The notes under the pieces: generated by a model
Database searches by the model: none
Told to the model about the DNA's origin: nothing
The model's input: the letters and a program-made list of their open reading frames with translations, nothing else
Translations under genes and position numbers: made by a program
In this document: in pieces, positions 234 to 25,620 of the stretch
How the letters are laid out: each line of letters opens with the position of its first letter
Position numbering within the stretch: the stretch's first letter is position 1
IMG/VR virus record: IMGVR_UViG_3300025127_000240
Location: 1-25,682 of that record
Reading direction: 5' to 3' (one strand)
Origin: a virus
DNA length: 25,682 bases

Positions 234-707
234 TTATTCTCCTAACGTATGTATAACGGGTTTTTCTGTCTTCAGTATATTATACAACTCCATGTTCTCA
301 GCTGTGGATACTGGATAAAACTCAGCAGAAGGATCAAACCCATCGTATCTCTTTGCCTGATTAATTACTATAGATCCATTCTCTCCTGATGTAGACCTAT
401 GAAATGTACCACGAGGTATTACCAATGCTCCACTATGTACATTGAGGTGTACAATATGATATGGATATTTCCAATCTCTATTAACTAATTCAAAAGTTCT
501 CTCACCCGATATTACTCTATTGCAATCGTCTTGGAAACTATGAATGTAAAACTGTTTACCTCCTACACAATCAGGTGGAGGTGATACGGCAGGACCTGAG
601 TGTACCACAAGGTCACTAGCATTTGATTCTTCTACAGATATATCATAGAAGATAACATCATCAGTTTCACGAAACACACGGTGTCTCTTGAAATTTATAT
701 CACCCAT
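234..707 (-). CDS. cupin-like conserved phage protein
   Basis: A 157-residue soluble protein rich in beta strand. The central part (about residues 85-120), with VHLNVHSGALVIPRGTFHRS followed by SGENGSIVINQA, looks like a RmlC-type cupin barrel: a hydrophobic strand, G-A-L-V-I-P-R-G-T-F-H turn, then another strand. His residues around 56, 85, 88, 91 and 103 could bind a metal, but I cannot match the classical two cupin motifs exactly. The start ATG overlaps the TAA of the 67-residue gene by one base (TAATG). It belongs to the cassette that contains PTOX. Enzyme or binding function is not known; the fold call is inference from motif shape. Confidence 0.6.
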   Translation of the reverse strand: MGDINFKRHRVFRETDDVIFYDISVEESNASDLVVHSGPAVSPPPDCVGGKQFYIHSFQDDCNRVISGERTFELVNRDWKYPYHIVHLNVHSGALVIPRGTFHRSTSGENGSIVINQAKRYDGFDPSAEFYPVSTAENMELYNILKTEKPVIHTLGE

Positions 708-1219: not shown

Positions 1220-1443
1220 TTTCTTACTATTAAAGTATCGTCTTCGTCATCATCGTCTTCAGCTTTGAAAACTAATAACTCAGTTCCGTTTTCAACCTCA
1301 GACATCTCTGGGTGTACGGTTCTTTTGATTGGTTTGTTCATCGTCTCAAATGTGTAAGTCATAGACTTCCACATAAAAGCAAAAGCAGCACCTGCAGTCA
1401 AAGCAAATCCAATACCAAATATGAATATCGTCATGTCGTTCAT
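1216..1443 (-). CDS. small membrane protein resembling cyanobacterial DUF2973
   Basis: 75 residues: an N-terminal transmembrane segment (about residues 4-25, IFIFGIGFALTAGAAFAFMW), a linker, the motif TVHPEM (residues 42-47), a short segment ENGTELLVFKA, and a very acidic stretch EDDDDEDD. The order 'N-terminal membrane helix, then HPEL/M, then ..ELL.V..' recalls the small DUF2973 proteins of cyanobacteria, whose role is not known. The assignment rests on my memory of that pattern, not on an alignment. It lies directly after PTOX with an overlapping stop/start (ATG at 1443, PTOX stop at 1440-1442), so the two are likely made together and may act in the same membrane. Confidence 0.6.
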   Translation of the reverse strand: MNDMTIFIFGIGFALTAGAAFAFMWKSMTYTFETMNKPIKRTVHPEMSEVENGTELLVFKAEDDDDEDDTLIVRK

Positions 1444-1943
1444 TTTAGCAACTCGATAGCATTTAGGAGTTCTTGTGAATGATGTAACTCATCGTCTTTG
1501 ATCTCCTGTATTCTAGCATCTTCTGGATGAGACTGCAAATATTTGTCATATGTTTCTGCTGCATGACATTCTACTTCATATGAGAGATGGTATGCAGAGC
1601 GAGGAGCAATCCAGTAGTATGCTACATTGACCCAGTAATATAAAAGAACAAGATGTCTTGCTAAAAAACGATCTACCCAATAGGCATTACCGCCTTTACT
1701 CTCCATGTATTCTAGATGTTCTGTTTCATTTACTGATTGATCGAAATGCTCTTTCATTAAGTAAAGGTGCTCAGGACCTCGTAGTCCCATGCTCTCACGT
1801 AAATGAAGGACACTCAAAAAAGCAAAATAGGGTGCTCGAGCAATTTCCTCTAACACCCAAAATCTTTGAAAGTCTCTTCCTTTATATAGAAAGTCAATGA
1901 TAGCAACCGTTATGTTTAACGTGATTTCATTGAATCTAATCAT
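1440..1943 (-). CDS. ptoX: plastoquinol terminal oxidase (PTOX, alternative oxidase family)
   Basis: A 167-residue di-iron oxidase that transfers electrons from plastoquinol to oxygen at the thylakoid membrane. In infected cyanobacteria it is thought to relieve an over-reduced quinone pool when carbon fixation is shut down. All six expected di-iron ligands are visible: E32 in LEEIARAPYFAF, E73 and H76 in NETEHL, E125 in ECHAAETY (the E..A..TY motif), and E152 with H155 in DELHH. The length is short relative to plant PTOX and typical of the minimal phage and cyanobacterial form. The start ATG at 1943 overlaps the TGA of the upstream membrane-protein gene, and its own stop overlaps the next start, so it sits inside a tightly coupled cassette behind the sigma70 promoter at 2,634-2,662. 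No key residue is missing, so it is probably active. Confidence 0.95.
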   Translation of the reverse strand: MIRFNEITLNITVAIIDFLYKGRDFQRFWVLEEIARAPYFAFLSVLHLRESMGLRGPEHLYLMKEHFDQSVNETEHLEYMESKGGNAYWVDRFLARHLVLLYYWVNVAYYWIAPRSAYHLSYEVECHAAETYDKYLQSHPEDARIQEIKDDELHHSQELLNAIELLK

Positions 1944-2275
1944 CTTAATGCATTAACTTTTTCTACTATCTTATCTATAATGTCTATATCAATTCCCATG
2001 AATGGTGGTATTACACCAAGCAAACGTAGTGTTCCATCTAGGAATAATGCTAGACAAGTAAATCCTAATATCATACTAATAACAGTAGCATCTCTATTGT
2101 GCTTCTTCATTGACTCCTCATCAATGCGTCTTGCTTCTTCTAGAGTTTCTTGAAGTAATTTTTCTACTTCTTTTTTAGTATAGAAACTACCTACTCCTGG
2201 AACTTTCAAGAAAGGTTTTAAATTTATTTCTGGTTTTATGTCTGATAGTGGAAGGTTACTAATCATCGTGATCAT
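1940..2275 (-). CDS. 111-residue hypothetical membrane protein
   Basis: The N-terminal half has a charged helix likely to form a coiled coil (EVEKLLQETLEEARRIDEES, residues 36-55). This is followed by one transmembrane segment (about residues 63-82, ATVISMILGFTCLALFLDGT) and a short C-terminal amphipathic helix. The start is uncertain: ATG at 2275 overlaps the end of the PsbN-like gene by 17 bases, and a second ATG lies three codons later. The stop overlaps the PTOX start (ATGA). A single-span, PTOX-coupled protein could be a membrane partner, but there is no family recognition to support it. Confidence 0.7.
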   Translation of the reverse strand: MITMISNLPLSDIKPEINLKPFLKVPGVGSFYTKKEVEKLLQETLEEARRIDEESMKKHNRDATVISMILGFTCLALFLDGTLRLLGVIPPFMGIDIDIIDKIVEKVNALR

Positions 2276-2489
2276 CCCATGGGTCTGTTAAATTTTTATT
2301 CGCGAAGAATCCTTTGTAAATTCCAAACGATGCTAATAATACAGTGATAACTGCTATTGAAATTCCTAAGGTAAAATTAGGATCGGCATTGTAATGTGGA
2401 ATTATTGCGTTGCACTTAGTCCAAGTCCCAGGTAGGGTATAGACTGGTGGGCAACTTGCTAGAATCATCATTAGATAAGTTTTGATCAT
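2259..2489 (-). CDS. psbN: PsbN-like photosystem II assembly protein with N-terminal extension
   Basis: 76 residues. The C-terminal half (about residues 38-76) matches the shape of cyanobacterial PsbN (about 43 residues): a membrane helix LGISIAVITVLLASFGIYKG, then N-L-T-D-P-W-D-D-H-D-D, close to the usual L-R-D-P-F-E-E-H-E-D ending. PsbN is not a stable photosystem II subunit; it is needed for assembly and repair of the reaction centre. The first 37 residues are extra and contain MMILASC, which fits a lipobox-like cleavage pattern, and CPPVYTLPGTWTKC. No ATG, GTG or TTG lies between codon 8 and the PsbN-like core, so the extension appears real. The first 74 bases overlap the end of the 65-residue gene in another frame. 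The PsbN call is from motif recall and should be checked by alignment. Confidence 0.7.
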   Translation of the reverse strand: MIKTYLMMILASCPPVYTLPGTWTKCNAIIPHYNADPNFTLGISIAVITVLLASFGIYKGFFANKNLTDPWDDHDD

Positions 2490-2613
2490 GGTAAGTTATC
2501 AGTTTATGAATCAAATCATCATACTGTTCCCACATCCATTCACTACCTGTTTGGTCTTGGTAAGTCCTACAAGCAGTTATTAGACGTAGTATATCATTAG
2601 TGTTAAGACGCAT
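2416..2613 (-). CDS. 65-residue conserved cyanophage protein, unknown; first gene of photosynthesis cassette
   Basis: Contains LITACRTYQDQTGSEWMWEQ followed by YDDLIHKLITYHDQN, a helical pattern I associate with an uncharacterised family in cyanomyoviruses. It is the first frame after the consensus promoter at 2,634-2,662; the predicted transcript would start about 14 bases before this ATG. No strong ribosome-binding site is visible, so initiation may be nearly leaderless. Its last 74 bases overlap the PsbN-like gene in a different frame. Function unknown. Confidence 0.7.
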   Translation of the reverse strand: MRLNTNDILRLITACRTYQDQTGSEWMWEQYDDLIHKLITYHDQNLSNDDSSKLPTSLYPTWDLD

Positions 2614-2667: not shown

Positions 2668-2946
2668 TCAGCAATTCCAAGCACGAAGCGACTTATTAAT
2701 TCTTGAATCTGGATCGCTTGCGGTCTTTTTAGAAGTTAATTTCTTTTTCATACCCTTCATTCTCGCACAAAAGCTCGCTCTACGAGGGTTCCCAACTTTT
2801 TTTGAAGGTGCCTTAAGGTCGCTTCCTGGATTTTCTCTCTCGTAGCTTTTACGTCCTTTTTCATTTAAACCCCCAGACTTATTTTTACCTGCTTTTTTAG
2901 TCCATGCAGCTTCAGTTAGGTTTTTAATATCTGAGTATGACTTCAT
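2668..2946 (-). CDS. small basic protein, DUF6321-like
   Basis: 92 residues, strongly basic (runs KKAGKNKS, KKKLTSKK). The conserved-looking core is GLNEKGRKSYERENPGSDLK, then GNPRRASFCARMKGMKKKL and a C-terminal SLRAWNC. I recall this pattern as a domain of unknown function (DUF6321) found in phages and bacteria; it may bind nucleic acid because of its charge. It follows the 2OG oxygenase gene after 18 bases and has a GATAAATA late-type element at 2,966-2,973, about 20 bases before its ATG. The adjoining promoter at 2,634 lies downstream, so this gene belongs to the structural transcript or its own late one. Confidence 0.75.
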   Translation of the reverse strand: MKSYSDIKNLTEAAWTKKAGKNKSGGLNEKGRKSYERENPGSDLKAPSKKVGNPRRASFCARMKGMKKKLTSKKTASDPDSRINKSLRAWNC

Positions 2947-2964: not shown

Positions 2965-3621
2965 TTATTTATCATTTAACTTACTTGCATTTCTATCAAA
3001 ACCTCCATGCATGTTCTCCCATTCTTTATAAGGAGACTTATGTAAATTCATTGCTGCACATACACGTCTACCTTCTGTTGGTTTGACTCGGTGTTCTAAA
3101 ATACCAGGGAACATTACAAGCATTCCTTCCTTTGGATGTAGATCTAGTCTATCTTCAAAACATAGAGGTGATGCATTTTTCTCGACTTCTATGTAATAGA
3201 CTGCTGCCCAGTCTGCTGGATAGTGCCCATGTTTTCTAGCATGATTTCCTTTACTGTATTCTGCAATCCAAAAGTTATCAACCAGAAATGGAATTTGTAA
3301 ATCATTCTGGTAGTAACTAGATAATTTTTTTGCTACATCTAAAGAATAATTAAGAAGTTCACTTACAATAGGTTCTGGACATTCTACATGCATATCAAAA
3401 CTACTTCTCCAATCTGTTTTTAGATTAGACATTTTAGTTCCAAGATACTTATGTCTATGTCTTTCAATATATTCTTTTAGTTCTTGATTAATTCTTTCAA
3501 AATCAGGAACTGTAACTGTGAATACAGGACAAGGTTTATCTACTTTTTGAATTTTTATTGGTTGTTTTCCTGGATTATCCAGACTGCGACTCACGTTTCT
3601 AATATAAGATGGTCCGTTCAC
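2965..3621 (-). CDS. putative 2OG-Fe(II) oxygenase (TIGR02466-like)
   Basis: 218 residues. The core about residues 117-192 has the jelly-roll dioxygenase pattern: HARKHGHYPADWAAVYYIEV (candidate metal ligands H131 and H133), then MLVMFPGILEHRVKPTEGRR with H177 as distal ligand and R185/R186 to hold 2-oxoglutarate. This layout resembles the TIGR02466 group of putative oxygenases common in marine phages and bacteria; substrates are not known. The start is GTG at 3621, preceded by GGAGG at a good distance and overlapping the TGA of gp16 (GTGA), so it is translated with the packaging genes. Confidence 0.8.
   Translation of the reverse strand: MNGPSYIRNVSRSLDNPGKQPIKIQKVDKPCPVFTVTVPDFERINQELKEYIERHRHKYLGTKMSNLKTDWRSSFDMHVECPEPIVSELLNYSLDVAKKLSSYYQNDLQIPFLVDNFWIAEYSKGNHARKHGHYPADWAAVYYIEVEKNASPLCFEDRLDLHPKEGMLVMFPGILEHRVKPTEGRRVCAAMNLHKSPYKEWENMHGGFDRNASKLNDK
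2966..2973 (-). promoter_or_regulatory. possible T4-type late promoter (GATAAATA)
   Basis: Seven of eight bases match the T4 late element TATAAATA on the minus strand. It is about 20 bases before the ATG of the 92-residue basic protein, which is the usual distance for a late leader. It lies over the last codons of the oxygenase gene. AT-rich sequence makes chance matches likely, so confidence is modest. Confidence 0.4.
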
Positions 3622-4028
3622 CGTTTACCTCCACCCATTTCTTTGAGCATTTTTTGTAGTTCAGTTGTGCTACCAACAAACATCGCATTGTTAGTAACAT
3701 TTTTAGGACCTTTTGCTTCTTCATCAAGGTCTTTCATCTTCTTGTGAAGATCTTGTAATTTCTCAGTCATGTCTGCGACATGCTTCATTGCCGCTACAGC
3801 AACTTCATATGCCCTAGGGTGCCCACTTTCCTGTGCTACCTCTAATGCTCCTTGTACTGCCTCCTGACCTTGTTCTATCAAAGAGTACAATTCTCCACGA
3901 GTATATTCATAATCTTTTACTTGATCATCTTTATCACCTTTAGGTAAACTAGGTTTACTAGGTTTGATCTCTGTAGACTCAACTTCAATGTCGAGCATAT
4001 CCTCCATGTTTTCTTCTAGACTACTCAT
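3618..4028 (-). CDS. gp16: small terminase subunit (T4 gp16)
   Basis: 136 residues (T4 gp16 is about 164). Small terminases recognise DNA and regulate the large terminase during head filling. The match to T4 gp16 is seen in the order SGHPRAYEV (residues about 69-77, T4 has NADSPRHMEV), the helix MKHVADMTEKLQDLHKKMKD, and the C-terminal NNAMFVGSTTELQKML (T4: NATVFMGSPTELMDEI). The N-terminus is acidic and probably disordered. The ATG overlaps the gp15 stop and the stop overlaps the oxygenase GTG. In T4 the next gene would be 17 (large terminase); here it is not in the window, being displaced by the cassette to the left. Confidence 0.92.
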   Translation of the reverse strand: MSSLEENMEDMLDIEVESTEIKPSKPSLPKGDKDDQVKDYEYTRGELYSLIEQGQEAVQGALEVAQESGHPRAYEVAVAAMKHVADMTEKLQDLHKKMKDLDEEAKGPKNVTNNAMFVGSTTELQKMLKEMGGGKR

Positions 4029-4825
4029 AAGATATCAAATCCACTATTGAACCCGAAGTCATCATCAGGTGTTACTAGTATATCATCATTAGCATCAACT
4101 TGTCCATCTTGGTTCTTATCTGTTTTTGCTTTTGGAGAGTATGTTAGTTGTGCAGCTCTGCGACCAACTGCCTGATCTCCAATAGTCTCGATGACTTTAG
4201 CAGTCCTGATAATATCTGCCTTACTGTAAGGACCATATAGATATGTCTTCGCAGAGAATTGTAATGTATAAACTACAAGTCTTCTGTTTAAGAAACTCTC
4301 ATCCCACTCATCTTCTAGATTTATAGAGTTGAGTGTAATAGCAACATCTCTTTTCTCATCCATATCTGGAATCATCTTTAGTGTAATATTAAAAGATGGT
4401 TGAAAGAAAGGAAGGATTTGTTCTAAAATTTGTAAACCTGTGTCTTGATCTTTTGATAGAATACCTAACTCAAAGTTTACTGTATATGGTACGGGAAGGT
4501 ATTGTACTCTTACTTCACTACCACTGTCTGCAACAACGTTTTTGTATTTTTGGACAGGACTTGTTTTTCTAGTAGAATCATATGAGATACCAGTCATCTC
4601 AAAATACATTCTAGGCATTGTGATTGCTACCTTCTGTGTGGAAGGGTTCTCAAACAATCTGTATAAAAACTTTTGCTTTGGTCCATACGCCAGAGCTACC
4701 TTTTCCGTTTCAATAACCTGACCTGTCTCTGGATCTCTTGTCTTTACATCAATATTATTGAAGAGTGTTCCAAAACCGATTACTGTTCTTCGGATGGTTT
4801 CGTTATAAAAATGTGATCCTAACAT
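4025..4825 (-). CDS. gp15: tail sheath stabiliser and completion protein (T4 gp15)
   Basis: 266 residues against about 272 in T4. gp15 forms the hexameric ring at the end of the tail that holds the sheath and joins tail to neck. Recognition rests on the N-terminus MLGSHFYNETIRRTVIGFGT with NNIDVK (T4: FYNSSFRRYATLMGDLFSNIQIK), the central VNFELGILSKDQDTGLQILE and QILPFFQPSFNITL (T4: QILPYFQPHFNTTM), and NRRLVVYTLQFSAKTYLYGP. Stop/start overlaps (ATGA) with gp14 and gp16 place it in the neck/packaging operon in T4 order. Confidence 0.93.
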   Translation of the reverse strand: MLGSHFYNETIRRTVIGFGTLFNNIDVKTRDPETGQVIETEKVALAYGPKQKFLYRLFENPSTQKVAITMPRMYFEMTGISYDSTRKTSPVQKYKNVVADSGSEVRVQYLPVPYTVNFELGILSKDQDTGLQILEQILPFFQPSFNITLKMIPDMDEKRDVAITLNSINLEDEWDESFLNRRLVVYTLQFSAKTYLYGPYSKADIIRTAKVIETIGDQAVGRRAAQLTYSPKAKTDKNQDGQVDANDDILVTPDDDFGFNSGFDIL

Positions 4826-16878: not shown

Positions 16879-19800
16879 TTAAATGATAGTCACAAACGTG
16901 AATCCAGGTTCAAACTTACGGAATTCTTCATCAGCGGTACCATCGAGGTTAACAGTACCAGATCCAGTATGAGCTGCAATTGGTATGTATTTAACATCAC
17001 CTGATTGCTCTTGCGTCTTCTCATCACCAGCAACAGGAGCAAGTCCTGTCTCAGGAGTGACGTAATTAGAGTTGATTCTAAGTTGTTCATCAACTTCTGC
17101 TTGTGTCCAACGTTCTCTAACAAGACTAATTTCAAACAGTCCAGTAGTATCATCTGTTTGAGCAATAAGAACAGCAACACCACCTGTAGTGAATAGAGAT
17201 CCAGATCCTTTATAGTGCGGAATAAATCTGATTTCTGTAGCAGCACCTGAGATATTGTATTGTGCTGTATCTCCAACATACCTGTCTGTTTGACTCTCGT
17301 CTGATGTTCCAGATATTGTTGTAGAACCTGATCCTTGATAACCCAAACGAATAAATGCTTCGTTTGCTCCACCAGATACACCAAAGAGACCTGTTGCTGA
17401 GTAGTTGAATGTAACTGTATCCGCAACTCCATTGAATGCGAATAGAGAACCAGTAGCAGCATGTGCTCGTAGAGATCTCTCGACTGTAGATCCAGTGATT
17501 GAAATAGATCCAGATCCGTTGTATGCTCTTGCTCTTGGAGTATCTGCTGTACCAGTAATTCTGAAGAGAATAATACTCTCTGATTCGTTGGTAGTCTTGG
17601 ACTCTGCAGCACCACCTGTGGTGAATAGAGAACCAGAACCAGCAAAGCTTCCAGTAAACTTGGAGACAGATTCTCCAGATAGTTGAATCTGTAAAGTCTC
17701 GTCGTCTGCAAATGTAACTTTTTCGTTGATTGCCTGACCAGAGAATGTGGATATAGTTCCACTTCCAATGTGAGGACGAACAACTGCACTGGTACTTTCT
17801 CCAGATAATGCAAAGAGACCAGTTGCATCTGGACTGAAGGCAATCCTCTCTTCTGCAAAAGCAACTGCAGCACCACCTTCCAAGAAGTCCATGACTCCTG
17901 TTCCAGTGTAATTATCAAGTTGTCTATCGTCTGCCTCTCCACTAAGTGTGATTTGTGCAGTGCTCTCTGGAGGATTGGCGATGAAGGATTCTCCAACAAC
18001 ACCACTGAATCCATAAAGACCAGTTGCTGCTTCATTAAATGTAACGCTCTCTGCAGCACCGCCAACTGTGAATAGAGAACCAGATCCAATCTCTCCATTG
18101 CTATGTTTTTCAACAGCAGATCCAGATAGAGTTGTAGATCCAGAACCAACATAACGTTCTGTATGTTTCTCTATAGATTGACCAGTAGCAACGAAGAGGA
18201 CTGTGCTTTCTGGTGGATTGGTTGTGATAACCTCAACAGCACCACCAGCAGTAAATAGATTTCCAGATCCAATGTATCTGTCTGTTTGTTTCTCAACACC
18301 ATCACCAGTAACAAATATGGAACCAGAACCAATGTTGTTAGGTGTGAATATAACACGTCCGACTGTACCACCAATAGTGAATTCAGCAACATCACCAACA
18401 TAACGTTCTGTATGTTTCTCGATTGAGAACCCAGATATACTTGTAGAACCTGATCCGACATAAGGTGCTCGAGTGAATGCCTCATCTTTGGTTCCTCCAA
18501 GAGCAAAGAGTGCGATATTCTCTGGAGGATTGCTTGTAACTCTTTCTGCAGCACCACCGAATGTAAAGATATTTCCACCAACAACAGGCATGTACTTGAT
18601 GTTGAATATAACATCACCACTGAGTGTGATGGTTCCACCCATCTCATCTGCCTGTGCAACTTTCTCGACACATGTACCAGAGAATCCACCGTAGGAACCA
18701 GATCCAACATAATCCTTGACGATCGTTGGATCTCCAGTAGTACCAGCAACTGTAAAGAGTGCAGTATCTTCTGGTGGATTTGTAGTGATAGATTCACTAG
18801 CACCACTAGCAGTGAACAGATTACCTTCACCATCAAAGTGATATTCAACGCTAAGAGTAGCAAAACCACTCCAAGTGTATTCTGGTGCATCTCCAAGATA
18901 TGCCTCTGTATGTTTCTCGGAAACTCTTGTTCCAGAGAATCCACCATAAGAACCAGATCCGATGTAAGGTGTTCGGGCAAATGCTTCGTTGCCTGTTCCT
19001 TGTAACTGATAGAGTCCTGTAGATTCTTCTACAACACCAACTGCTTCCGCTGCACCGCCTGCAGTAAAGAGGTTTCCAGAACCAGGGTATCTGACTCTGT
19101 AGATAAACTCGACTGCACCACCGATTGTGTATAGTCCAGTTGCTTCCTCTGCAACTCCAACCTTCTCGATAAGAGCTTGACCAGAGAACGTAGATAGAGT
19201 TCCACCTTGAACAACTGCAATGACTGTAGTAGATTCTGCAACAGTACCAGTTGCATCAAATATAATTGTGCTTTCTGGTATATTTGTAGTCTTGGATTCT
19301 GCTGCTCCTCCAGTAGTGAATAGAGATCCAGATCCAACATGATTAACGATGTAGTTGAATTCAACTTGACCGCTGACTGTGTAAAGACCAGTCGCTTCTT
19401 GTGTTGCAAATAGAACTCTCTCTGTTATAAATGGAGCAAATGGTTGTCCACCATGTCCACCAACCGTTGTGAAAGAACCAGATCCAATTTCTGTTGCTGG
19501 AGTAAAGGATTCTCCTGTAGTTCCACCAACAACAAAGAGTGCAGTATCTTCTGGAGGATTACTTGTGATAGCTTCAGCAGATCCACTTGCAGTGAATAGA
19601 GATCCAGATCCAACATAATCATCAGTCTGTCTTTCGACTGCATTTCCAGATAGAGTATACTGAGCAGTATCTCCAGTGTAATCTTGAGTTGCTCTCTCGA
19701 CTGCAGTACCAGATAGTGTGATAGCAGTTGCAGTACCAATATAACGTTCTGTATGTTTCTCAATACCAACACCAGATACTGTAAAGAGACCTGTTGCTGC

Positions 19801-22800
19801 TTCGTTGACTGTAACTGTCTCTGCAACTCCACCAGCAGTAAATAGATTTCCAGATCCGATATATCTGTCTGTCTGTTTCTCAACTGCGGTACCTGATCCA
19901 GTGAACAGAATGGTACGTTCTGGAGGATTAGTTGTAGTAGATTCGACAAGTCCACCAGCAGTAAATAGATTTCCAGAACCAGTAAATCTGAATGTGAACC
20001 TGTAAGTATTACCAATAAATGCAGGTGCTGTAAATAGTTCGATAGTACCAGCACCATCAATCTCACCAAATCTAGCGAAACGTTCAATTGCTGCACCAGA
20101 GAATCCACCGTAAGAACCAGAACCAGTATACCTTCTCTCGAATGGAGTAGAAGCTACACCACTTATAGTGTAAGTTCCGTGTGCAGGATCAAGTATATGT
20201 GCTAGATTTCCGTCAGCACCGTAATCTTCCTCACCATCTGTGAGTGGATTGGTTATCTGACCTTGATCTTCGTTAGATGTAGCATTAGCATCGACACTTC
20301 CATAATCCTCAGATGTGAGTGTATTAGGAAGATCTCTGTCGTATACCCAAGTTCTAGATTCTGCAGCACCACTGAGTGCGTTGAGTGTTCCAGATCCATT
20401 GAATGCGTGAGTTCTAAGTATGGCGACAACACCACTGACTGTAAAGAGTCCAGTAGTATCATCTGTCTGCGCAACTGTCTCTGCTGCTCCACCAGCAGTG
20501 AATAATGTACCAGAACCAACCCAAGAAGGAAGTCTAACAACATGCGCTGCACCACTGGTTGTATAGGTTCCTTGAGCAGGAGTAATGACTGTATTGAGAA
20601 TACTACCATTGTCTTCCTCACCCGCAGTAGTAGGAAGATTAATGCTACCGTCATCCTCATTGGTGGTTGATGTAGCAGAAACAAGACCATTGTCTTCCTG
20701 AACAAATGGTAATACAAGTTCATCACTGTAATCATAAGTCCTAGACTCTGCTGCACCACCGATAACAGGTAGAGTACCGAAGGCATCATACTTCCAACAG
20801 AATCTATATGTGTTACCAATAAATGCAGGAGAAGTAGATAGACTAAACAATCCTGTTGATTCTTCTGCAACTCCAGAAGATTCTGCAGCACCACCAAAGG
20901 AGAATAGAGAACCAGAACCAACCTCAGCAAATATAGGTTCAAACTTGACGTGACGTGCTTGCTCTTGTGTCTTCTCATCACCAACTTGAGGGACGAGACC
21001 TGTTTCAGGAGTAACATATGAAGCGTTACCAGCAAGAAACTCATCAATCTCTGCCTGAGTAAGAGGATCTCTAGTAAGACTGAGAGTGATTCCACCAGTT
21101 GTTCCAGTAACAGTCTGATCATAAAGAACAGTACCATTGCTTTCCTCACCAGCAGATAGAGGATCAACAATGGTTCCGTGATCTACGTCTGGATTAGGCG
21201 CAGTTCCAGTAACAAGACCATTATCTACAGATGAGAATACAACAACAGAACTGTCGTTATAGTCGAAGGTGACTTTCTCGACACATCCACCGATACTGAA
21301 TAGAGATCCAGATCCAACATAATCTCTAGACCTAGAGAATGCAGATGTACCAACAACAGTGAAGAGGTAAGTTGATTCGTAATCAAGGACAAATACCTCT
21401 GCTGCACCTGATGCTGTGAATAGAGAACCAGAACCAGTATATCTACGAGTAAATGGAGTCTCAGCAACACCAGTAAGATCAATTGTTCCTGTAAGAGGAT
21501 ATGTGGTAGCAGTATTGATGACTGTACCATTGTTCTCTTCTCCTGCAGTAAGAGGATCGCTGATAAGACCATTGTCTTCCAGAACTGTTGCAGTAGAACT
21601 GATAAGACCATTGTCTTCTGTGCTGAATACATCAATAGAGGTTTCGTTGTAATCCCAAGTAACTGCCTCTGCACATCCACTGAGTCCAAATAGAGATCCA
21701 GTACCAACATAATCTCTCGTTCTTGGAGTTTGCGCAACACCAACAATATCGAATAGTCCAGTTGCTTCTTCCGCAAATGTAACTTTCTCGACAAGAGCTT
21801 GACCAGAGAATGTACTGAATGTACCTCCACCAGTTTCAGGTACAATACTTTTCTCTACAGAGTTGCCGCTTACAACATATGATCCTGTTAGTGGGAACGT
21901 TGTAGAAGTATTGACGATCGTTCCGTAAGTAAATTCACCTGCGGTTGTTGTCTCTGCAATCGAACCATCATCAAAGTGATCGGTAAGGTAATTGGTTGGA
22001 TCAATAACATTACCATAATCATCAGTTGTAACAACATCAATTGAGGTTTCATTGTAATCCCAGGTGACTGCTTCCGCTGCACCATTAAGAGTGAAGAGAG
22101 AACCACTACCAATGTAAGGTCTTGTTCTACTGAATGCTGTAGATCCAGATACATTGAATAGACCGAATGCATCATCTGTTTGTGCGACTGCCTCAACAGC
22201 ACCACCGATTGTGAATAATCCACCAGAACCAATCTGAGAGAAGATAGGTTCAAACTTAACATCTCTTGCTTGTTCCTGTGTTTTGATATCGCCTGCCTGA
22301 GGAACGAGTCCTGTCTCAGGAGTAACGTAATCTGGATTACCAGCAAGTATTTCATCAACTTCCTCTTGAGTAAGAGGTTGTCTTGTGTAAGAGAACGTGA
22401 AGATAGGTCCAGTTCCACCAGCGTAAGGTTGAACTGTTTGAGTGTATAGGATTGTATTGTAGTCTTCTTCACCAGCAGTGAGAGGATCTGAAACTAAACC
22501 ACTATCTTCAAAGACTGTTGTTGTAGCAGTGATGTTACCATAATCATCAGAAGTAAATACAACTTGCTCACCATAATCAAATGTGACTTTCTCAACTCCA
22601 CCACCAACAGAAGGTATGATACCACTACCGATGTAAGGTCTAGTTCTGGCGTATACAGTTGTACCAACAATATCAAACAGTGCAGTTGCTTCCTCTGCAA
22701 ATGTAACTTTCTCAACCAGAGCTTGACCAGAGAATGTGGATATAGATCCAGATCCAATAAATCTACGAGTAAATGGAGTCTCTGCAACACCGCTAGTAGC

Positions 22801-25620
22801 AAGTGTACCTGTGAGTGGGTATGTTGTAACAGTATTAACAATAGTACCGTTATTTTCCTCACCATCAGTTAATGGAGAAGCAACAGATCCATTGTCCTCA
22901 GTTGTCTGAACTGAGTTAGTAATAAGACCATTGTCTGTAGTAGTAACAACGACAATAGAAGTTTCATTGTAATCCCAAGTTGCAGACTCTGCGGCACCAC
23001 CAATACTGAACAATCCACCTTCAACAAATGGTGCGTTCCAACAGAACCTATAAGTATTACCGATAAATGCAGGTGCTGTAGATAGACTGAATAGACCAAA
23101 GGTATCGTCTGTCTGTGCAACAACTTCGACTGCTCCACCAATAGCAAAGAGAGAACCAGAACCAATCTGTCCAAAGATCGGTTTGAATTGAACATCTCCT
23201 GCTTCTTCTTGTGATTTTTCTTGTCCATCAACAGGAACTAAACCTGTCTCAGGTGTAACATAGTCTGGGTTAATATTCAGACGTTCATCAATCTCTGCTT
23301 GAGTCCAAGAAGGTCTTTGATAAGCAAATGTAATTCCACCAGTAGTACCTTGTACAGTTTGACTGTAAATAACACTACCAAGATCTTCTATTCCTTCTGT
23401 TAATGGATTTGTAATAGATCCATAATCTATATCTGGATTAGGCGCAGTTCCTGTAATCAGACCGTTATCAACAGGTGTAGCAAAAGTGACTATAGAAGAT
23501 AAGTTATAATCAAATGCTGCTGCCTCTGCTGCACCACCAACAGAAGATAGAGTTCCACTAAAGATTTCACGGAATACAACAGCATCTAAACCAGATCCAG
23601 ATATATTCGCAGAACCAGATCCAACATAATCATCAGTCTGTTTCTCTATACCCTGACCAACTACAGAGAATAGATAAGTGTCTTCTGGAGGATTAGTTGT
23701 AGTAGATTCAGAACCACCACCAACAGCAAAGAGAGAACCAGTAACAGCGGAAACAGTAAATGTATTAAGAATACTACCATTATCATCAATACCCTCAGTA
23801 AGTGGATCAATGATCTCACCATGATTAACGATAGATCCACTAGCAGTAATAAGACCGTTATCATCTGTAGTGAATACAACTACTGTGTCTTCGTTGTAAT
23901 CAAACGTTGCAGACTCTGCTGCACCACCAACTGAGAATAGAGAACCAGATCCAACGTAATCATCAGTTTGTTTTTCTCCAGCAATATCAAAGTGGTATCT
24001 TGGAATAGGATATCCAGGATTCCAGAAATAAGTGTTGTATAGGAATGCTTTTCCAAGGCGAAGTTGTGTTGGTCTACGTGTGTGGATATAATATGGTGGT
24101 TCCTTTGGTTGACCAAAGAAATTTGTTTGAATAAGCTGCCCTGGGAAGATAGCTGATTCACCTTTCTCTTGAATAATAACTTTTTCAACAGATGTACCTG
24201 ATACAGAGAAGAGTCCTGTACCAAACTGTCCGAATATTGGTTTATATTGTACGTCTTCTGATTCTTCCTGTGTCTTCTCAACACCAACTTGAGGAACTAA
24301 TCCTGTTTCTGGAGTAACATACTGTGGGTTGATGGTAAGTTTTTCATCAATCTCTTCTTGTGTCCAAAGACTTCTGACGTAAAATACTCTAGGACCACCA
24401 GTACCGCCAAAGACATCTTCACTAAATCCAATATGTCCATGATCAACAGCACCTTGTGGTATACCTTCTGTTGTAGTACCAAAGTCTACATCTGGATTAG
24501 GTGCAGATGCTGTAATAAGATCATAATCTTCAGTACTGAAGAGATTAACAGAATCTTGACTCTGATGGAATGTTGCAGTCTCGACTGCACCACCTAGTGA
24601 GAATAAAGAACCAGAACCTAACCAAGAATTAGTTTTTCTTTTACCAGCAATATCAAGGCGCTGAACTCCCGTAGGGTAGTTTGGCGTATTTAAGAAATTC
24701 TGACGATTTATATAATATGGGAGACTAGGATTAAAGACGGAATTCCAATCAATTGCTCTTCTGTTGTATAGGAATGATCTTCCAAGACGAGGTTGCTTAG
24801 GTCTAGCAGTGTGGATATAATATGGTGGTACTGCTGGTTGACCAGAGTATGTGTTTTGACTGGGCGGTACAAAGTCTTGAATAAGCTGCCCTGGGAAATC
24901 AGCTGATTCACCTTGTGCTTCAAAACCAGTTGATTCAGCAACTGTACCTGTTACAGCAAAGAGTCCAGAACCTGTTTGTCCGAATGTTGGTTTATATCTT
25001 TCAGATACTTCACCACCAATTATATGACTAAATCCAGAACCAACCCATTCATACCTATTGATAGGCATATCAGGGATTCCTGTAGCAGTAGTTCTAGTTT
25101 GGTAACGTAAACCAGTTTCTTTACGCTCACCTAATGTAAACTTACCTCTAGCTGCTTCTACTGTTTGTATATCATGAACAGTTCTGCGTCTCTGTCCAAA
25201 TACTATGGAACCGTAATCTTCCTCTCCCTCGCTGAAAGGTTCTGTAATGCTGCCGCCATCTGGAGTCGGAAAATAAAGAGCTTGACCCAGAATTGCTTTT
25301 TGGTTTTGTAGATAACCCTCATGTAAGGGTTCTATAGTTCCATAATCATCATCTGATAATAGTAGATCAGAATCGGTATTATAAGATGCGTTAAATGTTT
25401 CTACCGCCGCACCATCAAATGTTGCTCCACCTGAACCCAACCAGAATGCGGAACTGCGTTCCATACCATCAGATATCTCGAATATGGTTCCTGAACCAAT
25501 CCATATACGTTTGAGTGACTGCCCAGCGACACCAGACGCTGCGATATTACCAGAACCAAGATAACTCGTCCTAGCAAACGCTTCGTTCGTTGTAGAGGTC
25601 ATAGACGCAACAGCGCCCAT
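16879..25620 (-). repeat. degenerate tandem coding repeats (about 60-70 bases per unit)
   Basis: The repeat is visible at DNA level: strings such as GAATAGAGATCCAGATCC or GAATAGAGAACCAGAACC recur dozens of times on the plus strand, encoding GSGSLF on the minus strand. The region 16,880-20,200 is almost pure short units. From about 20,200 to 25,400 the short units are interrupted by longer modules; the YVTPETGL module lies near 16,975-17,120, 20,935-21,080, 22,240-22,400, 23,170-23,320 and 24,235-24,380. Such near-identical stretches invite recombination and assembly errors. Confidence 0.85.

Follow-up and report, generated by a model that had tools for sequence, protein, structure and literature searches.

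The window analyzed here, namely the whole 25,682-nucleotide stretch of the IMG/VR virus record IMGVR_UViG_3300025127_000240, is from a marine cyanobacterial virus and encodes a small protein in which a core of the PsbN family is preceded by a conserved N-terminal module. This extension is real, is separable from PsbN and is shared with other proteins. Module proteins were defined as those with the motif P-x-V-[YW]-x-L-P-G-T-W within ~20 residues of the N-terminus, ahead of a single helix. The window protein has this motif at such a position, and no match was found in 100 shuffles of the window. The preliminary description of this DNA, which noted an N-terminal extension, missed that it is a module common to non-PsbN proteins and to a host protein linked to the plastoquinol terminal oxidase, PTOX, and also missed PTOX itself, one gene downstream in the window. 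The features of the region are collected in Table 1.

Table 1. Features of the psbN-like gene and its surroundings in the window
Feature	Position	Strand	Basis and remarks
psbN-like ORF	2259..2489	(-)	76 aa counted from first ATG; ORF call, Pfam and PHROG matches
Likely true coding region, from Met8	2259..2468	(-)	69 aa, MILASCPPVYTLPGTW...; probable, from homologue starts and phrog_8051 boundary
Module core PPVYTLPGTW (P-x-V-[YW]-x-L-P-G-T-W), residues 14-23	2421..2450	(-)	Motif comparison
Cys13 to Cys26 stretch, predicted lumenal disulfide	2412..2453	(-)	Cys pair counts
PsbN domain (PF02468) with C-terminal LTDPWDDHDD	2262..2384	(-)	Pfam match
Transmembrane helix	2319..2375	(-)	Residues 39-57 by hydropathy; AlphaFold helix ~residues 37-61
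PTOX, plastoquinol terminal oxidase	1440..1943	(-)	Pfam/PHROG; one gene downstream of psbN
Small membrane protein gene of 111 aa, phrog_7360	1940..2275	(-)	PHROG; between psbN and PTOX
Small gene, phrog_5190	2416..2613	(-)	PHROG; upstream neighbour, also precedes stand-alone module gene in L180/L191
DUF6321 gene	2668..2946	(-)	Pfam, synteny; next upstream syntenic neighbour
Small terminase (T4 gp16-like)	3618..4028	(-)	PHROG, synteny; slot anchor
Tail-sheath stabiliser	4025-4825		Profile match; upstream of psbN-like ORF

Identity, start site and surroundings of the gene

The ORF is translated from its first ATG into MIKTYLMMILASCPPVYTLPGTWTKCNAIIPHYNADPNFTLGISIAVITVLLASFGIYKGFFANKNLTDPWDDHDD. 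The preliminary description had assigned the C-terminal half to the PsbN family and had made this assignment dependent on a profile match. Such a match was found in the Pfam profile search, where PF02468 covers residues 36-76 (E=1.4e-9; 38.1 bits against a curated cut-off of 25), and the assignment can thus be kept. The NCBIfam PsbN equivalog model NF009650 scores 43.3 bits, below its cut-off of 70, and the protein should therefore be considered a homologue rather than an equivalog. The window core is 40% identical to Prochlorococcus PsbN over 42 residues, and the L, D and H of the L-x-D-P...H tail are invariant throughout the phage family. The PHROG entry phrog_8051 (69 aa, without a name) covers residues 8-76 at 69 of 69 positions (E=4.7e-42). 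A PDB search with the window protein gave no match, and AlphaFold models the helix with confidence and the module without a confident fold (pLDDT ~51-67).

As had been stated earlier, there is no alternative start near the PsbN core, but the ORF has further ATGs at codons 7 and 8. In most homologues, the first residue corresponds to Met8 (MIFLSC..., MFLASC..., MTFLSC...; MIFLSCPPVYTLPGTW...), as it does in phrog_8051, and the extension therefore comprises ~30 residues. The 37 residues previously given are thus too many, although the conserved extension itself holds. Judging from these homologues, the window protein probably starts at Met8 (2468). With this start, the stretch ahead of the helix is 31 residues long (38 if the first ATG is used), as compared to ~11 in host PsbN. 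In P-SSM4, the Met8-equivalent start overlaps the preceding stop codon by 4 nt. The starts of T4-GC163, the family of the window gene, are annotated inconsistently in GenBank/RefSeq cyanomyovirus records (in P-SSM4, 5 residues upstream of the shared start), and in most of these records the product is a hypothetical protein.

A tblastn search found the protein in ~40 cyanophage records, mostly of Prochlorococcus and Synechococcus myoviruses, and relatives are encoded by at least 488 IMG/VR stretches. The extension is found in hundreds of contigs and in most isolates; its reading frame is intact across the ~40 phage records and a large number of independent contigs of IMG/VR, and chance, a frameshift or a mis-assembly is thus ruled out as its origin. 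The view that psbN is rare among phage photosynthesis genes must also be abandoned given these numbers and the published record. T4-GC163 was described as a 'possible PsbN' found in all Prochlorococcus T4-like phages and 'universal and exclusive' to those isolated on Prochlorococcus (Sullivan et al. 2010, PMC3037559), and another work counted psbN with the most abundant photosynthesis genes in its viral samples (PMC8940887). The exclusivity, however, fails, as S-SSM4, S-SSM7, S-SSM6a/b and S-TIM4, which were isolated on Synechococcus, also have T4-GC163. The P-TIM40 and P-TIM68 records carry a PsbN annotation. NZ_RMVE01000006.1 (188 kb), from an assembly named Nonlabens xiamenensis, also has a psbN-module gene, which is almost identical to the P-TIM40 one; this contig is probably of cyanophage origin and a contaminant in a Flavobacteria assembly.

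The window neighbourhood is that of a T4-like cyanomyovirus. Its genes are ordered gp16, (2OG oxygenase), DUF6321, phrog_5190, module-PsbN, 111-aa gene and PTOX, while the order in L180 and L191, two loci with a stand-alone module gene, is gp16, DUF6321, phrog_5190, stand-alone module, (petE) and PTOX. As these orders match, one slot holds either the fused or the stand-alone form. A strict either/or between the two forms was rejected, since L022 and L188 carry both. Both petE (plastocyanin) and gnd (6-phosphogluconate dehydrogenase-like) can join the module/PTOX cluster in phages, with petE lying between the module gene and PTOX in L175 and L191; a petE/PTOX/gnd cassette has been described in cyanophages (Sullivan et al., PMC3037559). 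Relatives of phrog_7360 lie near other fused module genes, on either side (one cluster, 39 loci). Elsewhere in the window, a 2913-aa ORF of repeated GSGSLFxxGGxAE-type units (16879-25620, minus strand), next to a 1901-aa virion structural protein (phrog_5838), probably encodes a large repetitive fibre or structural protein.

A constrained, separable module and two PsbN-type cores

In 15 distinct phage genes, selected by core patterns only and thus without use of the module, pN/pS was 0.087 for the module, 0.062 for the linker, 0.29 for the helix and 0.13 for the tail, values that are rough because synonymous sites are near saturation. The extension is more constrained than the PsbN helix. Among 212 distinct sequences gathered with the pattern P-x-[VIA]-[YW]-x-L-x-G-T-W, the cysteines flanking the motif are both present in 122 and both absent in 87, with none having only the first and 3 having only the second, which in these exceptions sits inside the helix. 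Cys pairs and Cys-free forms are each seen in both of the PsbN classes described below. As the cysteines are gained and lost jointly, a disulfide is the simplest reading, and this pattern suggests a lumenal Cys13-Cys26 bond in the window protein.

The same first cysteine had been proposed as a lipid-attachment site. In such a lipoprotein, signal peptidase II would cleave at LASC, and the mature form would be lipid-anchored at Cys13. A LASC-like sequence is indeed found in the window copy and in some relatives. However, most homologues start only ~5 residues before this Cys and show no signal peptide with a positively charged n-region and a hydrophobic h-region, and the Cys is not invariant as in a lipobox, being missing in most stand-alone forms and in most of the P-SSM2-type class 2, where K, R, T or N mostly takes its place. 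Where present, moreover, it is always paired with the second Cys. We thus regard a lipoprotein as extremely improbable.

The motif also stands at the head of small membrane proteins that are not PsbN, for example MFFASHPSVYTLPGTWEPQPD...RRKRKRI (T4-GC646, phrog_33944). It is the isolates with a short psbN-like gene (MIIPHYNFDPN..., 49 aa), namely S-SSM7/S-SSM6a and P-RSM4/S-TIM4, that encode the module in trans, and in contig L413 the short psbN and a stand-alone module gene are two genes apart. Short forms made up 26 of the 65 parsed in IMG/VR, a number that should not be read as a frequency, as the search was seeded with the short form.

The cores to which the module is fused are of two classes. 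Class 1 phage cores, that of the window included, end with D-P-W-D-D-H-D-D, while class 2 cores (P-SSM2, P-SSM7) extend further with R-D-x-I-D-E-H-A-K-M-H-E-L-G-I-A-H-G-H-G-G. Prochlorococcus-type hosts encode a canonical PsbN next to psbH; another of their proteins also resembles PsbN and has the His-rich tail of class 2. PsbN of Cyanobiaceae hosts is 47-50 aa long and has no extension. In a tree of the 38-residue cores, of which only the deep split was used because the columns are few and the branches long, the class 1 cores cluster with host PsbN and those of class 2 with the His-tailed paralogue, at 99/99 support in each case. The best BLAST matches agree with this tree (89/89 for class 1 and 37/37 for class 2). 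Since the two classes share the module and have I-x-P-H-x-N linkers that resemble each other, the module has been joined to two different cores, either by two fusions or by core replacement. The second host paralogue, with the tail R-D-x-I-x-E-H-A-K-M-H-E-L-G-I-A-H-G-H, was seen in the Prochlorococcus-type genomes L269-L279 and L282-L285. In several host genomes of 1.7-1.9 Mb it is the sole PF02468 match, such that canonical psbN has there been lost, has diverged or was not assembled.

That the cores track two separate host PsbN paralogues bears on whether the tail is merely PsbN-like, with the gene encoding a generic phage membrane protein (e.g., for superinfection exclusion or lysis). The small size, the single helix, the variable genomic location among phages and the score under the NCBIfam equivalog cut-off (43 vs 70 bits) would all fit such a protein. 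Nonetheless, given also its occurrence in cyanophages, the module homologue in Prochlorococcus and the retained PsbN tail, we consider this very unlikely.

Host homologues, PTOX and the proposed function

A strict VY[TN]LPGTW codon scan of GTDB, together with a pattern search, returned only phage-like contigs and chance matches. The idea of a module confined to phages was, however, overturned when profiles recovered stand-alone host genes of diverged sequence, namely MVFLSNPQVWHLPGTWSEQP...SKRKRSS and MFFLSIPQAWHLVGTWSEQLP...SKKIKG, which, judging from genome size and context, presumably belong to LLI-like and high-light-like Prochlorococcus, respectively. Such a homologue is present in 43 of 300 Cyanobiaceae genomes, all of ~1.6-2.0 Mb and thus Prochlorococcus-sized. 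No Pfam or NCBIfam family covers this host protein (M-x-F-L-S-x-P-Q-x-W-H-L-x-G-T-W-S-E-Q).

PTOX (PF01786) was detected in 35 of the 43 module-positive genomes and in 1 of 37 sampled module-negative genomes (Fisher p=9e-14, where the data are clade-structured and kinship is ignored); one host genome, G001, has the module and no detected PTOX. In high-light-like genomes, the two genes lie ~2 kb apart on the same strand, and in LLI-like genomes both are present, far apart. The window PTOX is 57% identical to that of high-light-like Prochlorococcus. In phages, PTOX lies 7-602 nt downstream of the module gene, always on the same strand, in 11 of 33 stand-alone loci, while fused genes are near PTOX in 12 of 149 class-1 loci, several of which are near-copies of the window, and in 1 of 43 class-2 loci. 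Two further observations concern these surroundings. A high-light-like host module gene is directly preceded by a FAD-dependent, carotenoid-isomerase-like gene (L342:8881-10410, minus strand), with PTOX further downstream. The window gene at 234-707 (minus strand; phrog_9052, with a doubtful hemagglutinin label) is 53% identical to L343:7062-7607, which lies ~1.4 kb from the stand-alone module gene of an LLI-like Prochlorococcus genome.

In the stand-alone module proteins, K/R residues are absent ahead of the helix and number 4-6 behind it, a charge pattern from which these proteins are predicted to be N-out. Literature on plant PsbN places the C-terminus in the stroma, with only a few residues of the N-terminus reaching the lumen, and describes a role in PSII reaction-centre assembly in plants, PsbN being apparently non-essential in Synechocystis (PMC4823308). 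Taken together, the PsbN topology and the N-out charge pattern predict that the module of the phage protein is lumenal and its PsbN tail cytoplasmic. A proposed role of cyanophage PTOX is to shunt electrons from PSII to O2, and the enzyme is expected on the cytoplasmic membrane face. As this is the face opposite the predicted side of the module, contact between module and PTOX would need another partner.

We tentatively favor, with somewhat less than even confidence, that the fused protein is a lumenal PTOX/electron-transport module welded to PsbN, which would act as a PSII-PTOX adaptor. It would be a thylakoid membrane protein in two parts, made by a T4-like cyanophage of the Prochlorococcus type, with a lumenal module ahead of a PsbN core, the latter being related to host psbN and consisting of one helix and a cytoplasmic L-x-D-P-W-D-D-H-D-D tail. 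The ~30-residue module with its Cys pair would face the lumen; it is homologous to the small Prochlorococcus membrane protein that co-occurs with PTOX and, in high-light-like strains, is genetically linked to it. Phages have the module either in a gene of its own, which frequently lies in the PTOX/petE region, or as part of a PsbN fusion. The fused protein could then bring a lumenal electron-transport or PTOX-associated module to sites of PSII assembly or repair, such that PSII made with phage D1/D2 would pass electrons via plastoquinone to O2, the PTOX valve, during infection. PTOX-linked disposal of electrons at new PSII centres is proposed on two grounds, the association of the stand-alone form with PTOX and the role of PsbN in PSII assembly, and we infer the lumenal side, the disulfide and the adaptor role, be it physical or functional. 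Host PTOX transcripts rise in infected cells, where O2 is a proposed electron sink (PMC5082946). Several points argue against the adaptor: fusions are found in phages without their own PTOX (P-SSM2, P-HM2 and P-SSM7; PMC3037559, Table 3), fused genes are rarely near PTOX, the co-occurrence is confounded by clade, G001 has the module alone, PTOX is expected on the opposite membrane face, the module lacks a confident AlphaFold fold, and Synechocystis apparently does not need PsbN. A broader proposal would have the motif mark a thylakoid module of Prochlorococcus and cyanophages, hitherto undescribed, which acts together with PTOX and whose fusions to two PsbN paralogues couple PSII assembly to the plastoquinol-oxidase valve during infection; this is possible but doubtful.

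The distance of most fused genes from PTOX would also be expected of a plain phage PsbN serving PSII reaction-centre assembly or repair, in which the module, unrelated to PTOX, does no more than aid membrane insertion, dimerisation or stability. The tail and helix are conserved, and phages that make D1/D2 would gain from an assembly factor. On the other hand, host PsbN works without a module, and the module is strongly constrained, also occurs without PsbN in phages and hosts and, when stand-alone, tracks PTOX. We consider this account possible, but somewhat less likely than the adaptor. The module might also mark another lumenal partner, such as plastocyanin, cytochrome b6f, a carotenoid enzyme or a lumenal PSII factor, with the PTOX link reflecting a shared operon or niche. 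The predicted lumenal topology, the intervening petE and the adjoining carotenoid-isomerase-like gene of high-light-like hosts are in line with this, yet PTOX accompanies the module in LLI-like genomes too, although the genes are distant there, and such a partner seems unlikely. A short motif that tracks PTOX in hosts and is fused to a PSII assembly factor in phages names a candidate PTOX partner and offers a testable PSII-PTOX link. The comparison also exposes a Prochlorococcus gene family near PTOX that has no annotation, and shows phages recombining a small protein of host type with PsbN-type cores of two different kinds, both known from hosts.

Comparison with known systems

The gene family is known, while its module anatomy has no previous discussion in open-licence full texts. 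The window gene belongs to T4-GC163/phrog_8051, most members of which have the extension; in these texts, T4-GC163 is described by its PsbN domain only, with no mention of the module, its separability or its stand-alone relatives. These texts likewise describe no partner protein of PTOX and list phage PsbN without a role.

With PsbN of cyanobacteria and chloroplasts (PF02468), the window protein shares the single helix and the C-terminal L-x-D-P-[FW]-[DE]-[DE]-H-[DE]-D. It departs from a PsbN of ~43 aa with few residues before the helix, and its gene, unlike that of host PsbN, has the additional ~30-residue module and is not beside psbH. T4-GC646/phrog_33944, which adjoins PTOX in P-RSM4 and S-TIM4, shares the P-S-V-Y-T-L-P-G-T-W module and the predicted topology but has a KRKR-tailed anchor instead of PsbN and no Cys pair. 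The small Prochlorococcus membrane protein has a homologous N-terminal module and a single helix; it differs in being a stand-alone gene, in having W for Y and no Cys, and in its non-PsbN tail. Finally, the second Prochlorococcus PsbN-like paralogue (tail MHELGIAHGHGG) is the nearest host relative of the class 2 cores, with which it has the His-rich tail in common. It lacks the module, and the window core belongs instead to class 1.
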